Shown one piece after another: positions 20,225 through 38,588 of a stretch of 64,000 nt of DNA; within the stretch, counting starts at the first letter, position 1, and each line of letters opens with the position of its first letter. Origin of the DNA: Teichococcus aestuarii (GTDB lineage Bacteria; Pseudomonadota; Alphaproteobacteria; Acetobacterales; Acetobacteraceae). The DNA lies in the NCBI RefSeq assembly GCF_003116135.1, contig NZ_PDOA01000002.1, positions 310,001 to 374,000 on the forward strand, given 5' to 3'. The translations under genes were made by a program, and so were the position numbers. The notes under the pieces were generated by a model. It did no database searches. It had not been told where the DNA came from and saw only the letters and a list, made by a program, of their open reading frames with translations.

Positions 20225-20359
20225 GGATCTTCTTTTTCTGAAGAAAAAGAAGCAAAAAGACTTCTCGGGCTTGGCGCTGCGCCATCAACCAGCGCAGCGC
20301 CAGACCAACAAAAGTTTTTTGGTTCTTTTTTCCAAAAAAGAACCCTTCTTTTCTTCCTC
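20225..20359. repeat. Three-hairpin convergent-junction repeat, copy B
   Basis: Fills the gap between the convergent nitroreductase and TctC genes. Hairpin 1 at 20229-20252. Hairpin 2: perfect 11-bp stem 20272-20282 with 20292-20302 around the loop CATCAACCA. Hairpin 3: perfect 11-bp stem 20321-20331 with 20334-20344, flanked by T-runs. Outer hairpins nearly match copies A and C; the central stem differs in sequence but pairs fully. Confidence 0.92.
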
Positions 20360-33862: not shown

Positions 33863-34933
33863 TCAGCCCTGGCGCGGCTCGTGGACGGGGCAGCCGTTGC
33901 GGGTGCCGCGGAAGCGCGCGGAATCCTCGTAGGCCGGCCGGCGGGCGCGCATGATGCCGCCCAGCGGCCGGTGCGCCTCCAGCCCGTGCCAGGGGCTGAA
34001 GGCCATGCCGTCGTCGATCTCCCGCACCCGCTCCGCGTCCCAGGCCGGCTGCGGCGGCACGATGATGCGCGCCACGGCGATGTAGGGGCTCTCCTCCTCC
34101 GGCCAGGGCACCGAGGCATCCTCGACCGGCATGGTCTCGCGATTGGTGAGAAGCTGCACCCGCAGTTCCCACTCGCCTCCCTGCTCGCGGAAGAAGGCCT
34201 TCACCTCCTCGCGCAGCGCGTCCGGCCGGCCGCCGGTCTCCACCTTGGCGTCCTTCAGCGCCAGCAGCGCCGGGGAAAGCGGAGCGACGGAATACTTGGC
34301 CACATAGTCGCCGTGGCGCAGCGGCACCTGGCTCCAGAAGGTCTCGCCCAGGATGTGGGTGCTGGGATGGCCGCCCATGCTCTTCAGCATGGCGCTCTCG
34401 CCGCCGAAGGTCTCCACCACCGCCTCGGCACCGCGCAGCACGGTAGACACCATCTTCTTCAGCCCCTGCGGCGTGTCCGTGGTGCGGGCCAGCAGCTTCA
34501 GGCTGCCGGCGAAGGCCTTGGGGTCGGGCGCCAGGAAGGCCGGCGCGTTGGCCATGACGAAATCCTGCGTCGCATCCGCCTCCGAGCCGGGCAGCCGCTC
34601 CCCCTCGACGCCGATCACCTTCACCGCCAGGCCACGCGGCACGGTGATGCTGTCATCCAGCACGTCGCCGGGGTTGGTGGAGAAGCGCAGTACCGCCGGA
34701 TACTCCGCCGGATGCGCGAACAGCCCCTGCGCCAGGGTGGGCGGCAGGTGGCCCAGCACCCGCAGCGTGCCCTTCAGCAGGCCGTGGCCCTTGGCGTGCA
34801 CGCTGCGCACGGCGTGGCCATAATCCTCGAAGGTGGTCTCGCTGATCTTGCGCAGGCTGCCGGTGAGGGAGGCGATGGTCTCGGCCTCGTCGGGCTGCAC
34901 CTGTTCCAGCGAGGGGTCGTAGCGCACGGGCAT
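33863..34933 (-). CDS. Catalase-like haem protein (catalase family)
   Basis: 356 residues of the small, divergent catalase superfamily branch (y4iL-like), distinct from the true catalase at 642. It has the catalase-like stretch AVLRFSTNPGDVLDDSITVPRGLAVKVIGV and a distal His region (SVHAKGHGLLKGTLR), but not the full catalytic set seen in KatE. Activity could be peroxidase- or lipoxygenase-like; unknown. The ATG at 34933 follows GGAGAACG; the longer frame from 34993 adds only a poorly conserved leader. Same strand as, and 90 bp downstream of, hemE, a haem-biosynthesis gene. Confidence 0.82.
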   Translation of the reverse strand: MPVRYDPSLEQVQPDEAETIASLTGSLRKISETTFEDYGHAVRSVHAKGHGLLKGTLRVLGHLPPTLAQGLFAHPAEYPAVLRFSTNPGDVLDDSITVPRGLAVKVIGVEGERLPGSEADATQDFVMANAPAFLAPDPKAFAGSLKLLARTTDTPQGLKKMVSTVLRGAEAVVETFGGESAMLKSMGGHPSTHILGETFWSQVPLRHGDYVAKYSVAPLSPALLALKDAKVETGGRPDALREEVKAFFREQGGEWELRVQLLTNRETMPVEDASVPWPEEESPYIAVARIIVPPQPAWDAERVREIDDGMAFSPWHGLEAHRPLGGIMRARRPAYEDSARFRGTRNGCPVHEPRQG

Positions 34934-35023
34934 GGGGCGTTCTCCAGGGGGGTCACCCCGGAAAACGCCGCTCCCCCCGCCGCTGTTGCCCACAGGGCCG
35001 CCAGCGGCCCGCCAGGAGGCTTC

Positions 35024-36067
35024 TCAGCCCATGCGGATGACGCGTGCCAGCGCCGCCACATGCTCCGGCGGCGTCGGCGGGACGATGCCGTGGCCCAGGT
35101 TGAACACGAAGGGCCGGCCGCGCATGGCGGCCAGGATCGAGCGCGCCTCGGCCTCCATCGCCGCGCCGCCGGCCACCACCGCCTGCGGGTCCAGGTTGCC
35201 CTGCAGCGCCACCTCGGCCGGCACCGCCGTGGCGGCCCAGCGCGGGTCCATGGCGGTGTCCATTGCCACGGTGGAGACACCGGTGCGCTGCGCGTATTCC
35301 GGCAGCAGCGGCCCCGCCAGGCGCGGGAAGCCGATCAGCGGAATGTCCGGCCGGACCTTGCGGATGTTGCGGACGATGGCGGCGCTGGGCTCGATCGACC
35401 AGCGGCGGAACTGGGCGGGGGAGAGCAGGCCGGCCCAGCTGTCGAACAGCATCAGCGCCTCGGCCCCCGCCTCGGCCTGGGCGAGCAGATATTCCGTCGT
35501 CGAATCGACAAGCAGGCGGATCAGCTTCCCGAACAGCGCTGGGTCGGCATAGGCCATGCGCCGGGCATGGGCGAACTCGCCGCCGCCGCGGCCTTCCACC
35601 ATGTAGCAGGCGACCGTGAACGGGCTGCCCGCGAAGCCGATCAACGCCGCCTTCGGCGCCTCCTGAGCCAGCCCGGCCCGCACCCGCGACACCGTCTCGT
35701 AGATCGGCGCCAGCCGTGCCGCCGCCCCTGCCGGGTCCAGCTTCGCCAGCCCTTCCGCGTCGCGGATCGGCTCCAGCAGCGGCCCCTCGCCCTCGGCGTA
35801 GCGCAGCGGCTGCCCCATGGCCCAGGGCAGCATCAGGATGTCGCTGAACAGGATGGCGCCATCCATCCCGTAGCGGCGCAGCGGTTGCAGCGTCACCTCG
35901 GCGGCGAGGGCGGGGTTCGTGCACAGGCGGATGAAGTCGCCCGCCTGGGCCCGCAGCGCCCGGTATTCCGGCAGGTACCGCCCGGCCTGGCGCATCAGCC
36001 AGAAGGGTGGCGGCCAGACCGCCTCGCCGGAGAGGGCGCGCAGCAAGGGCTTCGGTGCGTTTTCCAT
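35024..36067 (-). CDS. hemE: Uroporphyrinogen decarboxylase
   Basis: Decarboxylates the four acetate side chains of uroporphyrinogen III to coproporphyrinogen III in haem synthesis. 347 residues, family length. The N-terminal signature PPFWLMRQAGRYLPEYRALR (near 20-40) carries the substrate-binding arginines; DILMLPWAMGQPL (near 76) holds the catalytic Asp; GFAGSPFTVACYMVEG is the second signature; NLGHGI near the C-terminus has the conserved His. Divergent from ppsR across the putative replication origin, the arrangement known from Caulobacter and Rickettsia. Confidence 0.97.
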   Translation of the reverse strand: MENAPKPLLRALSGEAVWPPPFWLMRQAGRYLPEYRALRAQAGDFIRLCTNPALAAEVTLQPLRRYGMDGAILFSDILMLPWAMGQPLRYAEGEGPLLEPIRDAEGLAKLDPAGAAARLAPIYETVSRVRAGLAQEAPKAALIGFAGSPFTVACYMVEGRGGGEFAHARRMAYADPALFGKLIRLLVDSTTEYLLAQAEAGAEALMLFDSWAGLLSPAQFRRWSIEPSAAIVRNIRKVRPDIPLIGFPRLAGPLLPEYAQRTGVSTVAMDTAMDPRWAATAVPAEVALQGNLDPQAVVAGGAAMEAEARSILAAMRGRPFVFNLGHGIVPPTPPEHVAALARVIRMG

Positions 36068-36398
36068 GGCGCCCCTTTCTATGAAAAAGAGTCTTTAAGA
36101 AAGATGGGGGACTCGTAGGGCCTGTGGATAAGGGGGACGCAGTGGACGCAATTCCTGTCCACAAAGTTCTCCACAGGCGCGAATCGGGCACAAAGCCAGC
36201 TCAAAGGCCGGTTTCCGGCGTTTTCCACAGAGTCTCGCGCCACGCTGTGCCCAACAAACCCCAGCCCCCCGGAAATGCGGATTCCATCCCCGCTTATCCC
36301 AGGGGGGGTTCCGGTGGGGCAAGGTTTTCCCCAATCTCCACAGCAATCCCCGTTATTCTCCACCGCGCAAAAACGCCGCACGAGGCCGATCGGAGCCG
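36068..36398. other. oriC: Putative chromosomal replication origin (oriC)
   Basis: 331 bp between hemE and ppsR without a gene. A perfect DnaA box TTATCCACA is on the minus strand at 36123-36131. Near-matches on the plus strand: 36155 CTGTCCACA, 36167 TTCTCCACA, 36221 TTTTCCACA, 36334 ATCTCCACA, 36356 TTCTCCACC. Five GANTC sites (CcrM-type methylation) occur in 196 bp: 36089, 36110, 36181, 36230, 36280. An AT-rich stretch at about 36077-36104 could be the unwinding element. The hemE-oriC-RP001 homologue order is the established origin context in Caulobacter and Rickettsia; ppsR is that homologue. Confidence 0.85.
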
Positions 36399-37265
36399 AT
36401 GTCAAACCGTAGCTTCAACCTGCATCTCGTCTCCGACAGCACGGGTGAGACGCTGAACTCCATCGCGCGCGCCACGCTGGCGCGCTTCGCGGACCCGCAT
36501 GTCATCCATCACCGCTGGTCGCTGGTCCGCTCCCATTTGCAGCTCGAGCAGGTGCTGGAGGGCATCAAGGCGGAGCCGGGGCCGGTGATGTTCACCCTGG
36601 TGGACCGCTCGCTGCGGCATTCGCTGGAGGAGGTGTGCCAGCAGCTCGGCGTGCCCTGCCTCTCGGTGCTGGACCCGGTGATGGACCTGCTGCAGACCCA
36701 GCTCGGCCAGCAGGCGCGGGAGAAGCGCGCCGCGCAGTACGTGCTGGACGCCGACTATTTCCGCCGCATCGACGCCATGCACTACGTGCTGGCGCATGAC
36801 GACGGCCAGGGCGTTGCCGGCATCGAGGAGGCCGACTGCGTGCTGGTGGGCGTCTCCCGCTCCTCCAAGACGCCGACCTGCTTCTACCTCGCCAATCGCG
36901 GCATCAAGGCCGCCAACGTGCCGATCGTGCCGACCTCCCCCCTGCCGGAGGAGCTGGAGAACCCGCCCTGCCCGGTGATCGGCCTCACCATCGACGTGGC
37001 GGCGCTGATCGACATCCGCCGCCACCGGCTGAAGATCATCGGCGCCGGCGGCGTGCGGCAGGACACCAACGACTATGTGGACCACGAGGCGGTGAAGGCG
37101 GAGATCCAGGCGGCGCGGCGGCTCTGCACCAGCCATGGCTGGCCGGTGATCGACGTCACGCGCCGCTCGATCGAGGAGACGGCCGCCACCGTGCTGCAGC
37201 TGATGGAGGCCTGGCACGCCCGCCGCAGCCAGGGCGGGCCGAAGCCCGGCGGCATCGGCGCATGA
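36399..37265 (+). CDS. ppsR: Pyruvate, phosphate dikinase regulatory protein (DUF299)
   Basis: Bifunctional kinase/pyrophosphorylase that switches PEP synthase or pyruvate phosphate dikinase off and on by ADP-dependent phosphorylation of a threonine. 288 residues. The family N-terminus [18 protein letters not shown] and P-loop GVSRSSKTP (151-159) are clear, with [22 protein letters not shown] before the loop. Homologue of the RP001/CC0001-type gene that flanks oriC in other Alphaproteobacteria. Its TGA overlaps the maf start (ATGA at 37262). Confidence 0.95.
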
Positions 37266-37855
37266 TCCGGCTGGTCCTGGCCTCCGGCTCCGCCACGCGG
37301 GCGGCGCTGCTGCGCGCGGCGGGGCTTGACTTCACCGCGCAGCCCGCGCCCGTGGACGAGGCCAGCCTGAAGGAGGCCGCCCGGGCCGAGGGCATACCGC
37401 CGGCCGATGCCGCCATCCTGCTGGCCGAGGCCAAGGCCATGCGCGTGGCGCGGCGGGAGCCGGAGGCGCTGGTGATCGGCGCCGACCAGCTCCTGGTGTG
37501 CGAGGGGGCGTGGTTCGACAAGCCGGAGGACCTGGCCGGCGCCCGCGCCCAGCTTCAGGCGCTGCGCGGGCGCACGCACACGCTGTTCACCGCCATGGTG
37601 CTGTGGCGGCATGGCCAGCGCGTCTGGCAGCACGTCGCCACACCACGGCTGACCATGCGCGACTTCTCCGACAGCTTCCTGGACCGCTACCTGGCGCTGG
37701 AGGGGGAGGCGGTGACGCACTCCGTCGGCGCCTACCGGCTGGAGGGGCCGGGCATCCAGCTCTTCCGCGAGGTGGAGGGGGAGCACAGCGCCATCCTCGG
37801 CCTGCCGCTGCTGCCGCTGCTGGGGTTCCTGCGGCAGCACGGGGCGTTGGATTAA
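37262..37855 (+). CDS. maf: Maf family nucleotide pyrophosphatase
   Basis: House-cleaning nucleoside triphosphate pyrophosphatase (dTTP/UTP or modified nucleotides). 197 residues. The N-terminal [14 protein letters not shown] carries the substrate-binding Ser-x-Ser-x-x-Arg; VIGADQLL has the catalytic Asp; [12 protein letters not shown] and [15 protein letters not shown] are family motifs. Translationally coupled to ppsR. Ends at repeat copy C. In Caulobacter maf is followed by aroE, coaE and dnaQ; here that run is absent and recR converges instead. Confidence 0.95.
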
Positions 37856-37856
37856 G

Positions 37857-37985
37857 GAAGAATCTTCTTTTTCTGAAGAAAAAGAAGCAAAAAGACTTTT
37901 CGATTCTGGCGCCGCGCCATCAACCAGCGCGGCGCCAGACTGACAAAAGTTTTTTGGTTCTTTTTTCCAAAAAGGAACCCTTTCC
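37857..37985. repeat. Three-hairpin convergent-junction repeat, copy C
   Basis: Between convergent maf and recR. Hairpin 1 at 37864-37887. Hairpin 2: perfect 12-bp stem 37906-37917 with 37927-37938 around the loop CATCAACCA, the same loop as copy B but with a C-G pair replacing T-A in the stem. Hairpin 3: 37956-37966 with 37969-37979, containing one G-U wobble where copy B has A-U. Confidence 0.92.
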
Positions 37986-37991
37986 CTTCTT

Positions 37992-38588
37992 CTACGCCGG
38001 CCGCCGCGCCTTCAGCGCCGCGGCCAATGTCCCGTCATCCATCACATCCAGCGCGCCGCCCATCGGCACGCCCTGGGCCAGCCGCGTGACGATGACGCCG
38101 GTGGGGCGCAGCCGGTCGGTCAGGTAATGCGCGGTGGTGGCGCCATCGACCGTGGCGGGCAGCGCCAGGATCACCTCGCGCGCCTCACCCTCCGCCACGC
38201 GGGCCAGCAGATCCGCCACGCGCAGATCGTCCGGCCCGACGCCGGAGAGCGCCGAGAGCACGCCGCCCAGCACATGGTAGAGGCCGCGGTGCACATGCGC
38301 CCGCTCCAGCGCCCAGAGGTCGGAGACGCCCTCCACCACGCAGAGCACGTCGTGCTCCCGCGCCGGGTCGGTGCAGATGCGGCAGGGGTCCTGGGTGTCG
38401 AGATTGCCGCAGACGCGGCAGGGGCGGACGGCCTCCGCCGTCTCGCGCAGGGCCTGGGCGAGCGGCAGCATCAGCCCGCCCGGGTCCTGCAGCAGCTTCA
38501 GCGCGGCGCGGCGGGCGCTGCGGCGGCCGAGCCCCGGCAGCCGCGCCAGCATGGCGACGAGCCGCTCGACCTGGTCCGGCCCGCGCAC
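37992..38588 (-). CDS. recR: Recombination mediator RecR
   Basis: Partner of RecF/RecO in loading RecA at gaps. About 198 residues. The helix-hairpin-helix ARLPGLGRRSARRAA is near the N-terminus, the four-cysteine zinc finger (CRVCGNLDTQDPCRIC) follows, then the Toprim domain (VLCVVEGVSDLWALE) and a C-terminal GVPMGGALDVMDDGTL. Start is uncertain: GTG at 38588 gives a usual-length N-terminus; TTG at 38594 or ATG at 38639 (overlapping ybaB by 35 bp) are alternatives. Last gene of dnaX-ybaB-recR. Confidence 0.93.
   Translation of the reverse strand: MRGPDQVERLVAMLARLPGLGRRSARRAALKLLQDPGGLMLPLAQALRETAEAVRPCRVCGNLDTQDPCRICTDPAREHDVLCVVEGVSDLWALERAHVHRGLYHVLGGVLSALSGVGPDDLRVADLLARVAEGEAREVILALPATVDGATTAHYLTDRLRPTGVIVTRLAQGVPMGGALDVMDDGTLAAALKARRPA

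Follow-up and report, generated by a model that had tools for sequence, protein, structure and literature searches.

Does chromosome replication start in the short spacer between hemE and ppsR, as an earlier note on this DNA had proposed, or do the DnaA boxes and methylation sites found there serve another function? The window, i.e. the whole stretch of 64,000 nucleotides analysed here, corresponds to positions 310001–374000 of contig C30 (C30:310001–374000) in a 5.2-Mb genome assembled into 106 contigs. The two divergently oriented genes, hemE with its start codon ending at 36067, enclose a spacer of 331 bp with a GC content of 59.5% (36068–36398 of the window). Family matches on both flanks bear out the predicted position between hemE and the RP001 homologue, ppsR, whose PRK05339-type product we take to be of the COG1806/RP001 type. 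PpsR is 92% identical to its counterpart in Pseudoroseomonas deserti (filed as Teichococcus deserti, Roseomonadaceae), and the host is therefore probably close to that group. The features of the locus are as follows (window coordinates; sites without strand are marked as such).

35024–36067, minus strand: hemE, uroporphyrinogen decarboxylase, left flank (TIGR01464, 372.9 bits, cut-off 302.95)
36068–36398, no strand: candidate oriC, entire hemE–ppsR spacer (boxes, contig scan, skew)
36076–36105, no strand: AT-rich, least stable stretch (stability scan), putative DNA unwinding element
36089–36093, no strand: GAGTC (GANTC, CcrM-type site) within the AT-rich element, in 16/16 aligned same-genus spacers
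36110–36114, no strand: GANTC site, common to fewer than 4/16 aligned spacers
36123–36131, minus strand: perfect DnaA box TTATCCACA (match and alignment)
36155–36163, plus strand: DnaA box, 7/9, with TCCACA (36158–36163) invariant in 16/16
36167–36175, plus strand: DnaA box, 8/9 (consensus match)
36181–36185, no strand: GANTC site, retained in 11/16
36221–36229, plus strand: DnaA box, 8/9 (consensus match)
36230–36234, no strand: GANTC site, retained in 15/16 with three different middle bases (6 G, 6 T, 3 C)
36280–36284, no strand: GANTC site, retained in 9/16
36325–36333, plus strand: DnaA box, 7/9 (consensus match)
36334–36342, plus strand: DnaA box, 7/9 (consensus match)
36356–36364, plus strand: DnaA box, 7/9 (consensus match)
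36399–37265, plus strand: ppsR, right flank (PRK05339, 310.7 bits, cut-off 225)
37262–37855, plus strand: gene of a Maf-like protein (PRK02478 as best model with 216.7 bits, under the cut-off of 269)

The array is asymmetric, the AT-rich element on the hemE side being followed by the perfect minus-strand box and then by weaker plus-strand boxes up to the end of the spacer. The earlier note had counted one perfect box at 36123–36131, at least five matches of 7/9 to 8/9, five GANTC sites in 196 bp where about one was expected, and an AT-rich stretch towards hemE; all of these were recovered. Besides the perfect box, the spacer contains two of 8/9 and four of 7/9, thus three with up to one mismatch (mean in shuffles 0.03) and seven with up to two (mean 0.47), and neither number was reached in any of 2000 first-order Markov shuffles, which were made from the spacer region and approximately keep its neighbour frequencies. 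The same shuffles contain 1.12 GANTC sites on average and five or more in 0.65% of cases, compared with the five found, which start at 36089, 36110, 36181, 36230 and 36280. The sole perfect box of the 64-kb window and both its 8/9 boxes all lie within the spacer. When the entire contig C30 (542,226 bp) was scanned in 331-bp windows with 20-bp steps, the next best windows held three boxes with up to two mismatches versus seven in the spacer, and five GANTC per 331 bp occurred at the spacer only. Among 252 windows of similar GC content (0.55–0.64, 50-bp steps), four contain at least four GANTC sites; they overlap mutually and all lie on the spacer. The 30-mer 36076–36105 belongs to the 76 least stable of the 542,197 30-mers of the contig, and these 76 fall at four distinct places.

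Two long runs, GAAAAAGAGTCTTTAAG (36083–36099) and CCTGTGGATAA (36121–36131), are invariant in all 16 aligned same-genus spacers and are both present in a 17th outside the aligned set. A further GANTC position is retained in 14 of the 16, the window being without that site. The gene pair itself is widely kept: ppsR is present in 42 of the 58 relatives' genomes searched, and hemE adjoins it in 28 of 30 loci listed from these 42 genomes (own genome included), in 68 of 80 loci from named genomes and in 9 of 11 additional loci. The loci not counted are L008 and L016 in the first set (no HemE match), 11 without a HemE match in the examined stretch (some end at a contig end) plus L194 (2360-bp gap) in the second, and L218 and L219 (1 kb only examined for the latter) in the third. 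At least one DnaA box with up to one mismatch was found in 27/28 and 57/68 of the hemE–ppsR spacers of the first two sets, and none in 1/28 and 11/68, respectively. Four relatives, G029, G024, G025 and the more distant G055, are devoid of ppsR. Upstream of their hemE genes, G029 has three boxes and G024 one at this threshold, and G025 and G055 none. The next reading frame in G024 is Maf-like as judged by eye, suggesting that the origin may have stayed at hemE there when ppsR disappeared. The segments upstream of hemE in the ppsR-less G029, G024 and G025 (L085, L086, L090) also carry repeated TGTACA and GGTACC words, and in 12 of 54 compared segments, counted by eye, GGGTACC stands after the conserved box.

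The earlier note had named the GC skew as a check, a minimum elsewhere counting against an origin at this place, and the outcome is in its favour. In this genome, the skew was read over two of the 106 contigs, C30 and C63. On C30, where the spacer occupies 346068–346398, the cumulative skew reaches its minimum 8.7 kb away, at 354941. Mean skew is negative on the left side and positive on the right, and none of 5000 block permutations attains the difference seen between the two sides at the spacer. The skew is weak (about 1%), and a one-break fit is near-flat between 356 and 386 kb, with 386 kb, 40 kb off the spacer, very slightly preferred over 356 kb. On the 3.78-Mb contig C4 of the same-genus genome G015, a sparse sampling (53 stretches of 20 kb, 28%) yielded two skew sign changes with a fit that was matched by none of 500 permutations and best breaks at 0.99–1.06 and 3.09–3.16 Mb. 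From the second break, dnaA at 3.18 Mb is less distant than the orthologous spacer at 2.92 Mb. With the 2.82–3.22 Mb stretch read fully, the best weighted break moved to 2.94–2.96 Mb, 20–40 kb from the orthologous spacer, and the minimum within these contiguous 400 kb is at 2944099, 24 kb from it. This refined fit is flat: 2.94–3.23 Mb and 2.55 Mb all score 93–100% of the best (2.55 Mb and 3.10–3.12 Mb 98–99%, the dnaA position 96.5%), and G015 therefore backs the region rather than an exact position. The skew turns at the site on its own contig and G015 is compatible but flat, the resolution being tens of kilobases at best. If G015:C4 were circular, the two halves between the spacer and the second skew change at about 1.02 Mb would measure approximately 1.88 and 1.90 Mb.

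The genome contains only two exact parS-like sites, at C30:392058 and 392104, 46 kb from the spacer; with one mismatch allowed, the reversed control pattern matched three times on each strand. Their surroundings, as read by eye from translations, look like ferrochelatase, rho, trmE, gidA, gidB and parA. Relatives likewise carry two exact parS sites on the contig of the spacer, at distances of 102 kb (G015), 32 kb (G008) and 89 kb (G001). According to an excerpt of a survey (PMC8116508), parAB lies near the origin in almost all surveyed genomes with exceptions in Rhodospirillales, and the parS position consequently supports the assignment without deciding it.

Exact TTWTCCACA occurs 18 times in the 5.2 Mb, whereas the reversed control pattern yields 10 matches. 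Two such boxes fall within 331 bp of each other only in the spacer and on the contigs C23, C41 and C63. Neither these three pairs nor the single boxes on C24, C32 and C74, each inspected over 4.4–9 kb around the site, lie in a 331-bp window that exceeds three boxes when two mismatches are allowed. The C63 site has three boxes of up to one mismatch, including two perfect ones, within 331 bp and ties with the spacer at that threshold and not on the total; one of its boxes falls in the end of an open reading frame. As an origin it was discarded, the skew climbing almost throughout C63 with no minimum near the boxes. The C23 pair, ahead of an open reading frame that resembles (by eye) a plasmid initiator, was rejected as a chromosomal origin. 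Its two perfect boxes (C23:1–6000, L057) are 197 bp apart, with a ParA-like frame nearby on the opposite strand, and C23 is, by eye, a probable plasmid contig. The C41 pair, compared on boxes only, is situated close to one end of its contig (2.4 kb), beside a frame that resembles, by eye, a transposase.

Three other explanations of the locus have to be weighed. The boxes and GANTC sites might regulate transcription of hemE and ppsR, with DnaA as transcription factor or by means of a GcrA/CcrM-type hemE promoter, and oriC would then be located elsewhere within tens of kilobases. The invariant AT-rich element indeed lies 16–32 bp upstream of the hemE start, a promoter or leader position, the genome encodes homologues of both CcrM (E 1.5e-149 to 6pbd) and GcrA (family match), and the skew alone permits an origin up to 40 kb off the spacer. 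However, seven boxes together with an unstable element exceed the needs of a promoter, the 542-kb contig offers no comparable box cluster, and a simple sigma-70 consensus scan of 35900–38100 found no match, a result of little weight in an alphaproteobacterium. Moreover, the experimentally identified Caulobacter oriC is flanked by this gene pair too, as described in the cited part of PMC1914354, and a purely regulatory role appears very improbable. Use of the spacer as hemE promoter and as origin is not mutually exclusive.

Much less can be said for a pure accident, in which a short AT-richer spacer collects box-like words by chance or as a low-GC artefact: the spacer is AT-richer than the surrounding DNA, but its own shuffles never reach the box counts, windows of similar GC fall short of the GANTC count and the positions are conserved across the genus, so that we consider the probability of this explanation negligible. 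In many bacteria the origin is next to dnaA. The dnaA gene of this genome is found on another contig (C21:6119–7519), and the proximity of the G015 dnaA gene to the sparse-sampling break, together with its score close to the best, would fit an origin there; yet C21 lacks any exact TTWTCCACA whereas C30 has the skew turn, and the refined G015 sampling favours 2.94–2.96 Mb, which makes an origin adjoining dnaA very improbable. Based on the agreement of boxes, skew, parS, gene pair and conserved boxes, all read from sequence, we assign the hemE–ppsR spacer with high confidence as the chromosomal oriC of this Roseomonas/Teichococcus-like alphaproteobacterium, in support of the earlier note.

For the origin assigned here, we propose a first scenario. 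DnaA-ATP would bind to the strong box and then fill the weaker ones; the invariant box beside the AT-rich element would anchor a DnaA oligomer that melts the element (36076–36105), where helicases might be loaded for bidirectional replication. More speculatively, the GANTC sites might be methylated by the CcrM homologue of the genome, and hemimethylated GANTC might, after firing, affect re-initiation or the neighbouring hemE promoter. A Caulobacter-type CtrA-controlled origin was discarded, as neither the CtrA (TTAA-N7-TTAA) nor the IHF consensus occurs in the spacer at up to one mismatch. The DnaA-trio pattern (BUS) was likewise rejected. As given in an excerpt of PMC8287927, its rules demand an uninterrupted row of three or more NAN trios that is no farther than 16 bp from a box; three trios appear in the window only at a spacing of 17, outside this limit, and the pattern is rarer than chance in relatives (7 of 42 versus 17.7 in letter shuffles; spacings 0–18, 42 of 47 representative spacers anchored on the conserved box). 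TAG alone is enriched beside the conserved box in that test (54 versus 28.9). No Rfam family matched 34900–38200 at its gathering score. Elsewhere in the window, an identical 20-mer, GTTTTTTGGTTCTTTTTTCC, stands at 20314–20333 and 37949–37968 and is found in none of the shuffles; the second copy overlaps a hairpin (37956–37979), and another hairpin is located at 37864–37887.

GANTC sites outnumber those of dinucleotide shuffles 3.6-fold in the 16 same-genus spacers (80 versus 22.4 expected), 2.6-fold in 36 Acetobacteraceae-like spacers (134 versus 50.8; L128–L171, including L128 and L148, which are very close to the genus of the window), 1.8-fold in 32 more distant spacers (120 versus 67.3) and 1.3-fold in the 12 remaining more distant ones (28 versus 22.0). 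Six other palindromic pentamers served as comparison, and none went above 1.2-fold in any set apart from AGNCT, whose matches can overlap GAGTCT. The 36 spacers have 11.3 GANTC per kb, versus 1.03 per kb in the rest of the loci, an excess that is partly general because that rest is mostly coding and GANTC is favoured in intergenic DNA (cited portion of PMC3973325). The most AT-rich 25-mer, extended by four bases on each side, contains GANTC in 27 of 47 representative Acetobacteraceae-like spacers, which share phylogeny and are not independent, compared with 4.0 in letter shuffles; with 20 of the 47 devoid of the site, the feature is not universal. These 47 are the Acetobacteraceae-like set of 64, picked by family label or rank (to L169), minus near-duplicates. 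Some spacers are particularly GANTC-rich: Roseomonas aerilata (L133) has 12 sites in 331 bp versus 5 in the other 8.5 kb of the locus, R. sp. SXEYE001 (L134) 14 in 338 bp versus 8 and R. harenae (L135) 13 in 351 bp versus 14, both again in the other 8.5 kb, and G019 (L216) 13 in its 626-bp spacer as called. By eye, such sites are mostly GAGTC/GACTC, often in a TGAGTC/GACTCA context resembling an iteron array, and the usual strong box is degenerate. At C52:243475–243572, an 8/9 DnaA box, TTTTCCACA, is located about 90 bp ahead of the GcrA-family match.

The 13-mers of E. coli oriC begin with GATC, and the position of a methylation site inside the AT-rich element is a feature common to both origins. 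Methylation sites are also overrepresented in both, GATC there (PMC4285127, in the part cited) and GANTC here, although methylase and site differ from the Dam/SeqA system. Caulobacter crescentus Cori, in the cited description (PMC1914354), is a hemE/COG1806 spacer of 404 bp that has, besides an AT-rich region and several DnaA boxes, five sites for CtrA and one for IHF; Caulobacter origins hold several GANTC sites, and initiation control is intact without CcrM, as stated in an excerpt of PMC3973325. The present spacer shares with Cori the boundary genes, the AT-rich region, several boxes, several GANTC sites and CcrM, but differs in its length of 331 bp, in having no CtrA or IHF match at up to one mismatch and in its best box, which is the E. 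coli-type TTATCCACA in contrast to the high-affinity box TGATCCACA of Caulobacter (PMC4285127, same part). The predicted oriC of Rickettsia prowazekii (hemE/RP001) has the same gene pair, yet is 82.55% AT in the cited account (PMC1914354), and, according to a passage of PMC11514494, CcrM does not operate in Rickettsiales. For ori2 (repABC) of Agrobacterium tumefaciens, the authors propose in that source that hemimethylated GANTC restrains re-firing (PMC11514494); unlike the present locus, ori2 is a RepC origin and not a DnaA origin. The GANTC sites of Caulobacter origins and the hemimethylation model for ori2 are thus already known, and the new detail is the GANTC in the most AT-rich 25-mer. 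We tentatively raise a possibility, which we hold to be rather less than probable, that the Acetobacteraceae/Roseomonadaceae origin is directly CcrM-controlled: GANTC would be retained inside the melting element, where its methylation state (full, hemi or none) would alter opening by DnaA. An alphaproteobacterial origin that depends on DnaA would then have acquired, by convergence, its own equivalent of Dam/SeqA, with the three Roseomonas spacers of 12–14 sites as the strongest form. A hemE promoter reading of the same AT-rich/GANTC element is equally open.

A search of the open-licence literature, with matches judged by title, listed no description of an Acetobacteraceae or Roseomonas oriC; DoriC or subscription papers may hold one. 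The present assignment, skew test included, places the origin in a group without a description in that literature. With a conserved GANTC in the putative melting element, a role of CcrM at DnaA-dependent origins in alphaproteobacteria other than Caulobacter becomes testable.
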